NCBI GenBank assembly: GCA_016192065.1
Contig: JACPUX010000072.1
Location: 1-64,000 of the forward strand
Reading direction: 5' to 3'
Source of the DNA: Betaproteobacteria bacterium
Lineage (GTDB): Bacteria > Pseudomonadota > Gammaproteobacteria > Burkholderiales > Casimicrobiaceae
DNA length: 64,000 nt
The notes under the pieces are model-generated. The model saw only the letters and a program-made list of their open reading frames with translations. It did not search any database and had not been told where the DNA came from. This document shows positions 18,100-55,761 of the stretch, one piece after another (positions within the stretch are counted from its first letter, which is position 1; each line of letters opens with the position of its first letter). A program made the translations under genes and the position numbers.

Positions 18100-21000
18100 C
18101 TACGCCAGACCACGGCGCACCTCGGGAGGGGCGGGGTAGATGTGGCCGAGGGCGTCGACGTGGAATTTTTCAACGGACAACGCCGTCTTGACGCCGATGC
18201 CCTCGAACAAGCCATCCTTGCCAGCTTGCTGGTTTCGGTCGTGCGCCCAGATGTTCAGATTCCCGGTTCCTCGGTGACAGCTTGCGTAGTAACCCAGGAT
18301 GGGCGCCTTGTTCCTTTGTCTGACGCGAATCAGATCGTTCGGGTGCAGCGAAAAGCAGAAGTCGAAGCCGTCGTCGATCAAAGTCCAGTCGCCTTCGTCC
18401 TTGAACGCCACTATCGCCCGCCCCGGCAATTCCTTCGCGACCGCGTGATGCACATAGACCGGCACGAGATGATATTTGCCGTCCTTCTTGTGCCTGAACA
18501 CATCGACCCGCAGCATGGAGTCGTTTTTCGCGATGCCGCCGCGCACCGGGATGCCGGAGAGCTTGTCGATCAGCACGGTGACGCTGCGGACGATGGGGCC
18601 GGTCGGATTGCCGTCGCGGTCCGGCTTGCGCAGCGGATCGCCCGGCGGAAAGGCCTTGTCGCCTTTGCCGCCGTGTGCTTCCAGCCGCGCGCGGATCGCT
18701 GCATAGAGTTTTTCGTTGCGGTGCGGATCGATCAGCTTGTCCAGGTCGTTCAGGGTGAGGCTGGCGAGCGGCACCTTCTGGGTGACGCTGCCCTGTGCTT
18801 TGAGCCGCTCCGGCTGGGCATAGATGGTGTCCTTGTGCGCCGCGCCGCCGTTGCGCCGCTGCGGCGCGCGGGAGACGAAGAGGGGCCGCAACGCTTCCAG
18901 CGCTTCCGCCGGCCAGTGATCCAGCGCCGAAATCCTTGCGTGCAACTCGGCGGGGTCGTCGATGTGCAGGCGCGCATCCAGTTCGTTGCGGAAATTCGGC
19001 CAGGGATCGGGGAAGTGCTCATGCAACTGCCGGTACATGGCCGGATTGACGATCTCGCCGGTTTCCGCGTCGACAAACCCTTCGCGCACCTTCTCCAATT
19101 CCCTTCGCCGGGCATAGTCGGATAGCCGCTTGACCATGCCGTGGCTGCAGGCGGCCACTACGGCGGCATCGAGCGCATGGTGGCGATCGCTTTCGCCGCG
19201 CAGCTTGGCGAGGCCCCAGCGCGCGCGCAGGAAGGCCGTCATCTGGCCGCTCAGCACCACACAGCGTTTCGCCTCGCTGCCGTCGGCCAGCTTGAGATAG
19301 CCTTCGACGTAGTTCTTGAAGAAGCGGCAGATGTAGCGGGTGTCGTTGAGGTTGCGGTCACGGAATTCCTCGGCGGCCTTGCCGGCGAAGTCTTTGCGCA
19401 GCAGGCGGCTGCGCTTGGCGAGGCGGTAGGACTTGTTGGATTCGACGCAGACGACGAATTGCCGCCAGCGCCCGCTCTCCTTTGCGCCGTCGAGATACTC
19501 GTAGGGCGTGCGGTTGCCCTTGTCGCGGTTTTCCTTGGCGAGCACCAGCACCTTGTTGTTCTTGCTGTCGTCGAAACTGCGGGAGTAGGGCAGGGCATGG
19601 TCGATCTCGGCATAGCCGATATCGTGCAGCACGCGATGCAGGTCGAGCGGTTCGAGGGAATAGGCGCACTTGCCCTGCTGCTCGCGGTAAAGCTGGAACT
19701 TCTCGAACTCGCGGCTCTTGGCCGGTATTTTGAATTCTCCCTCGAATGCCGCCTTGTCCTTCTCGTTGCGCTCGCGGTACTCGTCCTGCGCCTTCTTGAC
19801 CTTGTTCCGTTCGTCCAGAGGACGGGCCAGGTCGCGCGCCATCTCGATGTGGACGGCGGCGGGCGAGCCGTAACGGCGCACCAGAGCGTTCAGGACTTTG
19901 CGCGCCTGGTTGAGCGCGCGCAGGACGACGGGGTTGCGCGGTACGTCCAGTTCTTCGCTGAACACCATGCGGCCGTCCTTGTCGCGCCCGGCATAGAGCG
20001 GCGGCAGGGTCTTGTGGCCGCCTTCGCCCGCCTTGCGAAGCTGGCTGTGGTGGTAGCCGGCCGCCGCACAGGCTTCGTCGTAGCGCAGGCCTGCCTCCAT
20101 GTGCGGCACAATCTTCCGCAGGGCCTTGAGCGACAGGGCGTGGAATGTGTCGAAACGGAGGTCCAGCAGGGCGTCGATCGTCTTTTCGCCGCCGGGCAAA
20201 GTCAGTTTCCGCAACTCGGCGGCAACTTCGTCATCGTCCTTGAAAACGCTCAGCACCCAGGCGATTTGATCGAGCAGTTCGGGATCGCCGCCCGTGGCGG
20301 CGCCGGCCATGCCTTCCCATTCGGTTTCCAGCCCCTTGTCCTTCAGGGTCTTGCGCAGTTCCTGCCAGGCGGGCAGCCGGATGAGTTTCTCGACTTCAGG
20401 GTCTTTGGCTTTGCCTTCTGCCTGTTGCGCAGCGGTAGGGTAGGAGAGCCCGACGACTTTGAAGGCATCCGGCAGTTGGCCCGCCTTGACCAAGGCGGCG
20501 CGCAGCTGCTTGTAGGTAAAATCGCCTGCCTGCTTGTAGGGGAGCGGCAGGGCGGTCTGTCGTTCTGCTTCGTTTAGGCCGCGGGTGACGCCATCGACGA
20601 CGATGCGCAAATTGTTGAGCCGCGTGAGCCAGACATGCCGCTCCGCGGTGAAGCTCGCCTTCGGAGCGCGGTATTCGTTGTCTTCGAAGGTGCATTTGCC
20701 GAGCATCTTGAGGAGATCATTGCCGGCCAGCGGGGCTTTTTGCTCCCAAAACAAACCGGACTTCCGGTCACCGTGGCCGAGGATGGCTGCCTCCAGTTCG
20801 GAGGTTGCATGGGGGTTTCCGAGTTCCCGCTGCCGCCGGAACAGGAGGGCCAACTCGTCAGCCAGCAGGATGCGAGAGAGGGCCTTGCCGTAGTCGCCCT
20901 GCTTGTTGCGCTGGGCATCGGGGAACTCAGCCAGAACCATTTCGGCGGCGCTGCGGTAACCCTTTTCCGCCATCCGTTTCCTGGTGTCGTCAAGCCCCTT

Positions 21001-21456
21001 CTTGACCTTGCCGCCTTCGCCTTTGCTGTCCGCTTCGGCCTGCTTTTTTTCGGCGCGGCTGATCCAGTGGAAGCCCCGGTGTTTGCATAAGTGATAGATC
21101 ACGCGCGCCCATTCATCCCTGGACTGCAGGCGGTCGAGCGCTTCGACCCGGACGGACCACAGCGACCGGCTAAACGGATTCTTGGGCTGGAAGTGCTGTA
21201 AGTCGGTGATCAGGCCATGACGTTTGAGCAGGCGAGCGAGTTTGGTTAACCGCCACGCGCGGCGACGGAGCCGGCGTCGCATGAGGCGGGCGCTTCGCCT
21301 CACGAGATTGAGCGAGTCTCCCTCCTTTGCAGTCTCGGCCTTGTCGAAACATCGAACGCCAAGATCGATGATGCGATCGGTTCCAAGCAAACACCAGCCG
21401 ACCGAAGCAATGCCGATGTCCAGCCCCAGCGTATAGGGGATGTTTTGCGTTTGCAT
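18100..21456 (-). CDS. cas9: CRISPR-associated endonuclease Cas9 (type II-C)
   Basis: A 1118-residue Cas9, close in size to Neisseria Cas9. RuvC-I is YTLGLDIGIASVGW with Asp13, followed by an arginine-rich bridge helix (RRSARLMRRRLRRRAWRL). RuvC-II is VHIEMARDL near residue 537. The HNH domain shows EIDHALPYSRSFDDSKNNKV with His near 617, and RuvC-III shows DRHHALDAAVVAA near 762. All catalytic residues appear intact. The start ATG 21456 follows AGGGAGG; the frame upstream of it runs through the tracrRNA gene and is not protein. It is the first gene of cas9-cas1-cas2. The PAM cannot be read from sequence alone. Confidence 0.98.
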   Translation of the reverse strand: MQTQNIPYTLGLDIGIASVGWCLLGTDRIIDLGVRCFDKAETAKEGDSLNLVRRSARLMRRRLRRRAWRLTKLARLLKRHGLITDLQHFQPKNPFSRSLWSVRVEALDRLQSRDEWARVIYHLCKHRGFHWISRAEKKQAEADSKGEGGKVKKGLDDTRKRMAEKGYRSAAEMVLAEFPDAQRNKQGDYGKALSRILLADELALLFRRQRELGNPHATSELEAAILGHGDRKSGLFWEQKAPLAGNDLLKMLGKCTFEDNEYRAPKASFTAERHVWLTRLNNLRIVVDGVTRGLNEAERQTALPLPYKQAGDFTYKQLRAALVKAGQLPDAFKVVGLSYPTAAQQAEGKAKDPEVEKLIRLPAWQELRKTLKDKGLETEWEGMAGAATGGDPELLDQIAWVLSVFKDDDEVAAELRKLTLPGGEKTIDALLDLRFDTFHALSLKALRKIVPHMEAGLRYDEACAAAGYHHSQLRKAGEGGHKTLPPLYAGRDKDGRMVFSEELDVPRNPVVLRALNQARKVLNALVRRYGSPAAVHIEMARDLARPLDERNKVKKAQDEYRERNEKDKAAFEGEFKIPAKSREFEKFQLYREQQGKCAYSLEPLDLHRVLHDIGYAEIDHALPYSRSFDDSKNNKVLVLAKENRDKGNRTPYEYLDGAKESGRWRQFVVCVESNKSYRLAKRSRLLRKDFAGKAAEEFRDRNLNDTRYICRFFKNYVEGYLKLADGSEAKRCVVLSGQMTAFLRARWGLAKLRGESDRHHALDAAVVAACSHGMVKRLSDYARRRELEKVREGFVDAETGEIVNPAMYRQLHEHFPDPWPNFRNELDARLHIDDPAELHARISALDHWPAEALEALRPLFVSRAPQRRNGGAAHKDTIYAQPERLKAQGSVTQKVPLASLTLNDLDKLIDPHRNEKLYAAIRARLEAHGGKGDKAFPPGDPLRKPDRDGNPTGPIVRSVTVLIDKLSGIPVRGGIAKNDSMLRVDVFRHKKDGKYHLVPVYVHHAVAKELPGRAIVAFKDEGDWTLIDDGFDFCFSLHPNDLIRVRQRNKAPILGYYASCHRGTGNLNIWAHDRNQQAGKDGLFEGIGVKTALSVEKFHVDALGHIYPAPPEVRRGLA

Positions 21457-21480
21457 CCTGGCCTCCCTTGCCGATACAAT
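21451..21480 (+). promoter_or_regulatory. predicted tracrRNA promoter overlapping the cas9 start
   Basis: TTGCAT (21451-21456) and TACAAT (21475-21480) are spaced by 18 bases and point rightwards, away from cas9. A start near 21487 would place the anti-repeat at the RNA 5' end. The -35 hexamer covers the cas9 start codon on the other strand. Confidence 0.6.
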
Positions 21481-21486
21481 GACCGC

Positions 21487-21590
21487 ATTGTAGCCTTCCG
21501 GGGTGAGAGCCGTTGCTACAATAAGGTGGCCGCCTTCGGGCGGCGACCGAATCCGGCCCGACAGGGAAACCTGTCGGGCCTTAGTTTTTT
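21487..21590 (+). ncRNA. tracrRNA
   Basis: The 5' part (21487-21522) complements the CRISPR repeat: ATTGTAGCCTTCCGG and GGTGAGAG match its reverse complement, a short CCGTT bulge follows, then GCTACAA pairs again. The segment GAGAGCCGTTGCTACAATAA closely resembles the Neisseria tracrRNA. It is followed by a GCCGCC-TTCG-GGCGGC hairpin (about 21530-21543) and a terminal stem GGCCCGACAGG/CCTGTCGGGCC (21555-21580) ahead of TTAGTTTTTT. It lies 30 bases from cas9 and is divergent from it. Its predicted length is about 100 nt. Confidence 0.93.
21555..21590 (+). terminator. intrinsic terminator of tracrRNA
   Basis: GGCCCGACAGG pairs with CCTGTCGGGCC across a GAAA loop and is followed by TTAGTTTTTT. 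This doubles as the last structural hairpin of the tracrRNA. Confidence 0.88.
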
Positions 21591-21761
21591 GTGCTTTGCA
21601 CAAACGGGTGGCGCCGGTGAGTGCCGCCCGCGGCGAACCTGTGGTGCGGATAGGCGACCTTACTGATTGTCCGCGCGCGCTCTACTGAATGGAGTCCTGG
21701 CCGCTTTCCGGAGGCACCGACCAACAGAGCGGCCTCACCACAGACGCCCTGCATCTGCGCA

Positions 21762-53722: not shown

Positions 53723-53926
53723 ATGGCCAAGAAATTTCCCGTCCATCCCAAACACCCGGAGCGCATCTGCTGGGGCTGCGACAAGTACTGCGCGGCCGAC
53801 GATCTGCATTGCGGCAATGGCACCGAACGTACGCCACACCCGACGGAACTGTTCGGGGATGATTGGCAGGATTGGGGACTAGCGGTTGAGGAGAACGCCG
53901 CCGAAGCGTCACGGCGGAGACCGTGA
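53723..53926 (+). CDS. DUF3079 domain protein
   Basis: A 67-residue protein, MAKKFPVHPKHPERICWGCDKYCAADDL, with cysteines CWGCDKYC and a later HCGNG, typical of DUF3079. The four cysteines could bind a metal. The tail WQDWGLAVEE is also typical. Divergent from the phosphoesterase gene across a 222-bp gap. The function of the family is unknown. Confidence 0.85.
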   Translation: MAKKFPVHPKHPERICWGCDKYCAADDLHCGNGTERTPHPTELFGDDWQDWGLAVEENAAEASRRRP

Positions 53927-54255
53927 CTCGCCGCCCAGGCCCTGGCGGCACGCGTGCGGCGGCGGTGTTTCCTGGGGCGCGGCCCTGGGTGACCGAGTCT
54001 GCTTGAGAGGCCCGAGGGAGAACCCCTAGGGAGACTTTACATAATACACATTATACGCATTGTGGTGTGGGAATGGGGTTGGATTTGCCCCCTCCAATCA
54101 GACCAACTTTCTGATCGATCTGCTTGATTGGTCTGCTCACTCTTCGCGCAGCAGTTTCAAAAGCCGCTCCAGGCGATTCAATTGTCATAAAAATTGGCGC
54201 ACTTGCGGGCACATGCGGTTAAAATAGGATTTCTCCGGCGCAATCGACAAGACCA
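53927..54255. other. 329-bp intergenic region containing a dif-like site
   Basis: No full gene is supported. The section 54035-54062 is a dif-like sequence (separate entry). On the minus strand near 54135-54180 a short frame reads NRLERLLKLLREE before a stop, perhaps the end of a lost gene. Just before the kinase start, TTGCGG (54204-54209) and TAGGAT (54226-54231), 16 bases apart, could be its promoter. Confidence 0.4.
54035..54062 (-). other. dif: candidate dif site (XerC/XerD chromosome dimer resolution site)
   Basis: Read on the minus strand, the 28 bases are an arm AATGCGTATAA, a centre TGTGTA and an arm TTATGTAAAGT. E. coli dif has GGTGCGCATAA, TGTATA and TTATGTTAAAT, so 22 of 28 positions agree and the 11-6-11 layout is kept. 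The two arms form the partial dyad ATAAT...ATTAT expected for XerC and XerD binding. It is an AT-rich island in an intergenic region of GC-rich DNA. If correct, the window covers the replication terminus. Confirmation needs genome-wide GC-skew and uniqueness checks. Confidence 0.75.
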
Positions 54256-55761
54256 GTGGATCAGGCCAAACAGAAGTTCGGGCGGTTTGAGGTTCAGCGC
54301 GAAATCGGGCGCGGCGCGATGGGTATTGTTTATCTCGCGCTTGATCCGGCCTTGCAGCGCCCCGTGGCGATCAAATCTCTGCGCCTGGCGGGCTCGGCCA
54401 CCGACCTCACCCCTGTGCAGCAGCGCTTCGTCGAGGAAGCTCGCGCTGCGGCTCGGCTCAATCACCCCAATATCGTCACCGTCTACGAGGTCGGCCAGGA
54501 AGGCGGCAATGCCTACATTGCCATGGAATACCTCGAAGGCCGCGAACTCAAGCAAATTCTGCTCGACGACCAGCCCGGCCTGACCTTCCGGGAAATCGCC
54601 GAAATCGTCGAACAAATCGCCGAAGCGCTGGACTACGCCCACAGCAATGGCATCGTTCATCGCGACGTCAAGCCGGCCAACATCATGCTGGTGCGCGGCA
54701 ACATTCCCAAGGTGCTCGATTTCGGCATCGCCATGCCGCCCACCGGCTCCGACGACGAGACCCTGAAATTCGTCGGCTCGCCCAAATACATGTCGCCCGA
54801 GCAGGTCGAAGGCGGCCCGGTCGATCGCCGTTCCGACGTGTTTTCGCTCGGCACGGTCATGTACGAGCTCTTGACCCGCCGTGCGCCTTTCGAAGGCGAA
54901 ACCCTGACCAGCGTGGTCTATCAGATCCTGCACGAAATGCCGCCGCCCCCGCAGGCGGTCAGCGGGAACACCCCGCGGTACCTGGCGCGTATCGTCGCGA
55001 GAGCGCTGGCCAAACGGCCAGAAGAACGCTACCAAAGCGCCGCCGAAATGGCCGCTGAGCTTAATCGCTATGCCCAGCGCGCGCAGGCCAAAGCCACCAT
55101 CAACAAGCGCAAGACCTCCGCCGACGCGCTCCCCTCGTTTTCCCCGCTCGACCCGGGGGCCACCAAGGGCGACGATGCGCTGTCCCGCACCATTCAACTC
55201 AGTCCCGGCGAAGTCGCGCAGGCGAAGCACCGGAATCGGCGAAGACGTCTGGTCGGCTGGCTGGCTGGCGCCACCGCGGCACTGTTGATTGGCATCGGCA
55301 TTTGGTCCAACCTCGGCGGCGGTAATGCCGCATCCCGCCAGGTGACAACGCCAACGCCGCCGCCTTCACTGGCCAATATCGGCACCACCAAGACCGATAC
55401 TTCGCCACTCGCCGAACCCCGCGCTCCAGAGTCGCCACCGCCCCTCCCGGTGGTCGAACCCGAGCCTAAGAAGATGGTCGAGAAGCCGGTACGCATCGCC
55501 AAGGTGGCGAAGCCGGTTGCGCCCCCGCCGGAGCCTGAACCGGCCTTGCCAGCGCCAGCCGCGGTGCAATTGGCGATCTCGCCCTGGGGCGAGATCTTTC
55601 TTGATGGCGCCAAGATCGGCGTCTCACCACCCCTGAAAGAGTTGCAAACCACGGCCGGGCGCCATAGGATTGAAATTCGCAACGGCGACGCCCCTCCTCA
55701 TGTGGCGGAGATCGATCTCGCCGGTCATGAAACCAAACGTATCAAATACAAATTCCAATGA
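54256..55761 (+). CDS. membrane-anchored serine/threonine protein kinase with C-terminal PEGA-like domain
   Basis: A 501-residue Hanks-type kinase. The glycine loop is IGRGAMGIVYLA, followed by the Lys in VAIKSL, HRDVKPANIML with the catalytic Asp, DFGIA and SPKYMSPEQVEG. A linker leads to one membrane segment (VGWLAGATAALLIGIGIWSN), then a Pro-rich stretch and a C-terminal PEGA-like domain (LAISPWGEIFLDGAKIGVSPPLKELQTTAGRHRIEIRNG). GTG is the start codon. It overlaps the downstream lipoprotein gene by four bases. Confidence 0.9.
   Translation: MDQAKQKFGRFEVQREIGRGAMGIVYLALDPALQRPVAIKSLRLAGSATDLTPVQQRFVEEARAAARLNHPNIVTVYEVGQEGGNAYIAMEYLEGRELKQILLDDQPGLTFREIAEIVEQIAEALDYAHSNGIVHRDVKPANIMLVRGNIPKVLDFGIAMPPTGSDDETLKFVGSPKYMSPEQVEGGPVDRRSDVFSLGTVMYELLTRRAPFEGETLTSVVYQILHEMPPPPQAVSGNTPRYLARIVARALAKRPEERYQSAAEMAAELNRYAQRAQAKATINKRKTSADALPSFSPLDPGATKGDDALSRTIQLSPGEVAQAKHRNRRRRLVGWLAGATAALLIGIGIWSNLGGGNAASRQVTTPTPPPSLANIGTTKTDTSPLAEPRAPESPPPLPVVEPEPKKMVEKPVRIAKVAKPVAPPPEPEPALPAPAAVQLAISPWGEIFLDGAKIGVSPPLKELQTTAGRHRIEIRNGDAPPHVAEIDLAGHETKRIKYKFQ

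Follow-up and report, generated by a model that had tools for sequence, protein, structure and literature searches.

A probable chromosomal dif site in the terminus region of an uncultured Casimicrobiaceae genome

Chromosome dimers are resolved by the dif/Xer system, in which FtsK moves along KOPS motifs to the dif site and triggers strand exchange there, with XerD acting first and XerC second. Within the order Burkholderiales, a dif sequence has been published for Bordetella pertussis Tohama I, AATTCGCATAATGTATATTATGTAAAGT (Carnoy and Roten 2009, PMC2731167). The XerC arm has already been reported as the more variable arm (PMC2731167, PMC3025954), and that of Burkholderia mallei is listed as TCGATAA (PMC2731167).

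Here we describe a 28-bp site in a 64,000-nucleotide stretch of DNA (the window) that forms the left end of a 364-kb contig (C72) in the draft genome of a betaproteobacterium of the family Casimicrobiaceae. The assembly comprises 4,072,885 bases in 85 contigs and is 88.84 % complete. The site is almost certainly an ordinary chromosomal dif of the XerCD type. An initial annotation of the window had put forward this interpretation, and our analysis supports it: the reading rests on the sequence match, with no better match elsewhere, on the single copy, on the position of the change in GC skew and KOPS polarity, on conservation in relatives within diverged flanks, on orientation, and on the Xer and FtsK genes of the genome.

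Sequence, copy number and recombination machinery

The site is intergenic, between a DUF3079 gene that ends at 53926 and a Ser/Thr kinase gene that starts at 54256. Read on the minus strand it is AATGCGTATAA-TGTGTA-TTATGTAAAGT, an 11-6-11 layout; ACTTTACATAATACACATTATACGCATT is the plus-strand sequence of 54034-54061. The parts of the site are as follows.

54034..54061, minus strand: probable dif site, 28 bp, AATGCGTATAATGTGTATTATGTAAAGT; single copy, matching the dif of E. coli and B. pertussis and identical in the same-genus genome G001 within diverged flanks
54051..54061, minus strand: putative XerC-binding arm, AATGCGTATAA; assigned by homology, by aligning the site with those of E. coli and relatives
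54045..54050, minus strand: central hexamer TGTGTA, between both arms
54034..54044, minus strand: putative XerD-binding arm, TTATGTAAAGT; assigned by homology, with a TTATGT core in nearly all related sites listed

The initial annotation had placed the site at 54035-54062 on the minus strand. The site itself stands but the register was off by one base, and in the corrected register the agreement of 22 of 28 bases with E. coli dif holds; the proposed 11-6-11 XerC/XerD layout and intergenic placement were both confirmed on the sequence.

The next best site in the 364-kb contig agrees with E. coli dif at 18 of 28 positions. Against the B. pertussis dif the site scores 25 of 28 and the next best 17. 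Five simulated 4-Mb genomes, generated by a first-order Markov model with the same composition and dinucleotide statistics, gave best scores of 18-19 against E. coli dif and likewise 18-19 against that of B. pertussis; the match is thus far above chance expectation. Searching the window for E. coli dif at up to three mismatches returned no match, as expected from an agreement of 22/28. The 28-mer itself has one match at up to three mismatches in the whole 4.07-Mb draft (88.8 % complete), the single copy anticipated for a true dif, and neither a better nor a rival dif match was found elsewhere in the assembly. A looser core pattern gave only two-mismatch noise elsewhere in the assembly, at about the frequency of a reversed control.

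The genome encodes XerC above the NCBIfam cut-off, together with a second full-length Xer-type recombinase that scores 299 bits to the XerC model and is likely XerD; the XerD of G001 passes the cut-off of its own XerD model. FtsK_gamma is found above cut-off in two genes of the genome, one of them on the same contig, 78 kb from dif. The FtsK paralogues with a gamma domain (G000:C72:132259-132441 and G000:C57:22881-23063, G000 being this genome) have open frames of 782 and 1020 aa.

By homology, XerC and XerD would bind and recombine the site upon activation by FtsK. An odd number of homologous crossovers would leave the sister chromosomes joined as a dimer after replication, and the division septum is where this dimer would be resolved. 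FtsK, following KOPS that point to dif, would bring both dif copies together and activate XerD, which would carry out the first strand exchange; XerC would then complete the reaction.

GC skew, KOPS polarity and gene setting

The skew measurements cover the 364-kb contig and stretches of relatives. Over ~300 kb on the right-hand side of dif, almost all 10-kb bins have a negative GC skew. On the left-hand side, where the contig extends for only 54 kb, the signal is weak: its sign is mixed, the overall value is slightly positive, and cumulative skew peaks 13 kb left of dif. The skew profile of the window by itself was too weak to decide the matter, which was settled by the remainder of the contig and by G001. 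In G001, where 200 kb was covered on each side of dif, positive skew predominates on one flank and negative skew on the other, and the cumulative curve peaks 7 kb from dif. The skew switch that had been predicted at about 54 kb is thus clear in G001 and falls within about 13 kb of dif in the window, where the left arm is weak. The predicted switch in KOPS polarity is also present: plus and minus occurrences of GGGNAGGG number 9:1 left of dif and 23:57 right of it in the contig (Fisher p = 3e-4), and 27:12 versus 10:20 across dif in G001 (p = 0.004). The statement that the window contains the replication terminus therefore holds in the sense of the skew-switch and dif region.

Orientation was compared by reading genomes in the direction of dif, with 40 kb per side, in this genome, 11 relatives and E. 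coli. On the XerC side, KOPS are directed at dif in every one of them, E. coli included; on the XerD side they are directed back at dif, with G067 (3:2) as the one exception. In E. coli and in 11 of the other 12 genomes, the XerC side has the higher skew, G003 being level. Such a shared orientation of dif relative to KOPS and skew is not expected of a chance match.

The window also carries sulfur-oxidation and CRISPR genes, located as follows.

10.2-13.4 kb: SoxX-SoxA fusion and SoxB
14.5-21.6 kb: CRISPR-Cas9 region as a whole
14498 onward: CRISPR array, 35 copies of one exact 22-mer
18100-21603: Cas9, type II, 1167 aa
30-45 kb: dsr/sat/apr genes
30.5 kb: DsrK
32.0 kb: NAD(P)-binding protein, which may be DsrL, judging by its place after dsrK
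40.7 kb: ATP sulfurylase
42.8 kb: AprA

Since the sox, dsr/sat/apr and CRISPR-Cas9 genes share the window with dif, they lie within about 45 kb of it, in line with the earlier claim of about 50 kb from the terminus, and in this genome they are terminus-proximal. A single ORF at 10218-11522 matches both SoxX (residues 116-191) and SoxA (223-433), a SoxX-SoxA fusion adjoining soxB. The CRISPR array and Cas9 of this betaproteobacterium are located between the sox and the dsr/apr genes.

Conservation among relatives and rival readings

A degenerate dif pattern has a match in 48 of 80 genomes (this one included), nearly always one per genome, and a reversed control pattern has none in the same 80. 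Comparison with close relatives had been suggested as a check, and the same site is present in them, with all 28 bases identical in G001. The bases immediately outside the G001 28-mer differ from those of the window on both sides, and the surrounding intergenic DNA has no obvious similarity by eye. The order of the neighbouring genes is kept at 57-87 % protein identity (two HdrA-like flavoproteins, a phosphoesterase, DUF3079, the Ser/Thr kinase, radA and a membrane protein). Since the 28-mer is identical within diverged flanks, the conserved block coincides precisely with the functional unit of 28 bp. Among named genomes, a scan recovered the 26-base dif core only in JAPKHK010000001.1 (Casimicrobiaceae bacterium PDA_C_MAG.43).

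Two reading alternatives to a chromosomal dif were weighed and rejected. The 28-mer is palindromic, AT-rich and intergenic, lies 195 bases upstream of the kinase gene and has TATAAT on the minus strand within the dyad; on these grounds it could be a transcription-factor operator or a promoter element for that neighbour. However, a promoter scan did not find a sigma-70-like site, there is about one site per genome, and the site tracks the skew and KOPS switch. It also persists beside different neighbours: in G003 and G019, radA alone, among eight neighbours tested, was recovered near dif with a strong match. An operator or promoter is thus very improbable.

Integrative mobile elements that exploit Xer (IMEX) make use of sites that resemble dif and have 6-bp centres, and the site could likewise be the attachment or pdif site of such an element or of a plasmid. 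Against this, an integrated element would leave two copies and the assembly holds one, the genes on either side belong to the chromosome and show synteny with G001, and the 364-kb contig carries a chromosomal skew switch, which makes this origin exceedingly unlikely. Likewise, no XerCD-using element was seen inserted at the window dif, only one dif copy having been found. A chromosomal dif remains the preferred reading.

Two draft genomes have a second dif-like site whose central hexamer differs, at G007:C122:25517-25538 and G007:C360:18650-18671 in one and at L194 in the other (G043). Such sites may represent XerCD-exploiting elements, second replicons or contamination. Contigs of relatives break at dif in three places (G065:C5:166-191, G065:C11:3-28 and G021:C255:23-48, the last being L008), which hints at repeats or XerCD-dependent elements adjoining dif.

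The usual dif pattern has no match in one genus of the same family (g2, 11 genomes), and XerD is present in all 11. Sites were located there by following radA, a close neighbour of dif in several of the family's genera. Eight of the 11 carry a variant in which the centre and the XerD arm have their usual form (TTTATA-TTATGTTAAAY) but the XerC arm reads about TCGRGAA; standard dif patterns do not detect this variant (L186-L193, around position 1502 in each, from G002, G008, G018, G023, G034, G037, G040 and G043). The variant lies about 30-170 bases beyond radA in the seven genomes with both on one contig, and 0.05-8 kb from the local cumulative-skew maximum in the three genomes tested. Loss of the dif system in this genus was rejected, given the diverged-arm dif found beside radA. 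The XerC half-site has probably shifted at the level of the genus, with the locus beside radA unmoved; if true, XerC-arm co-evolution could be tested here.

Comparison with known dif sites

The arm of g2 resembles the TCGATAA of Burkholderia mallei, and since this arm and the variability of XerC arms are already published, the g2 dif is a variant inside known bounds. The window dif leaves the general picture of dif/Xer as it stands, but it provides an anchor for the terminus in an uncultured genome and is useful for annotation and contig ordering. It shares all 28 bases and the gene neighbours on both sides with the dif of G001, whereas the intergenic flanks differ. Compared to the B. pertussis Tohama I dif, it has three substitutions, two of them in the XerC arm (positions 4 and 7) and one in the centre (position 15). 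Six substitutions separate it from the dif of E. coli, with which it has in common the 11-6-11 layout and the orientation relative to skew and KOPS.
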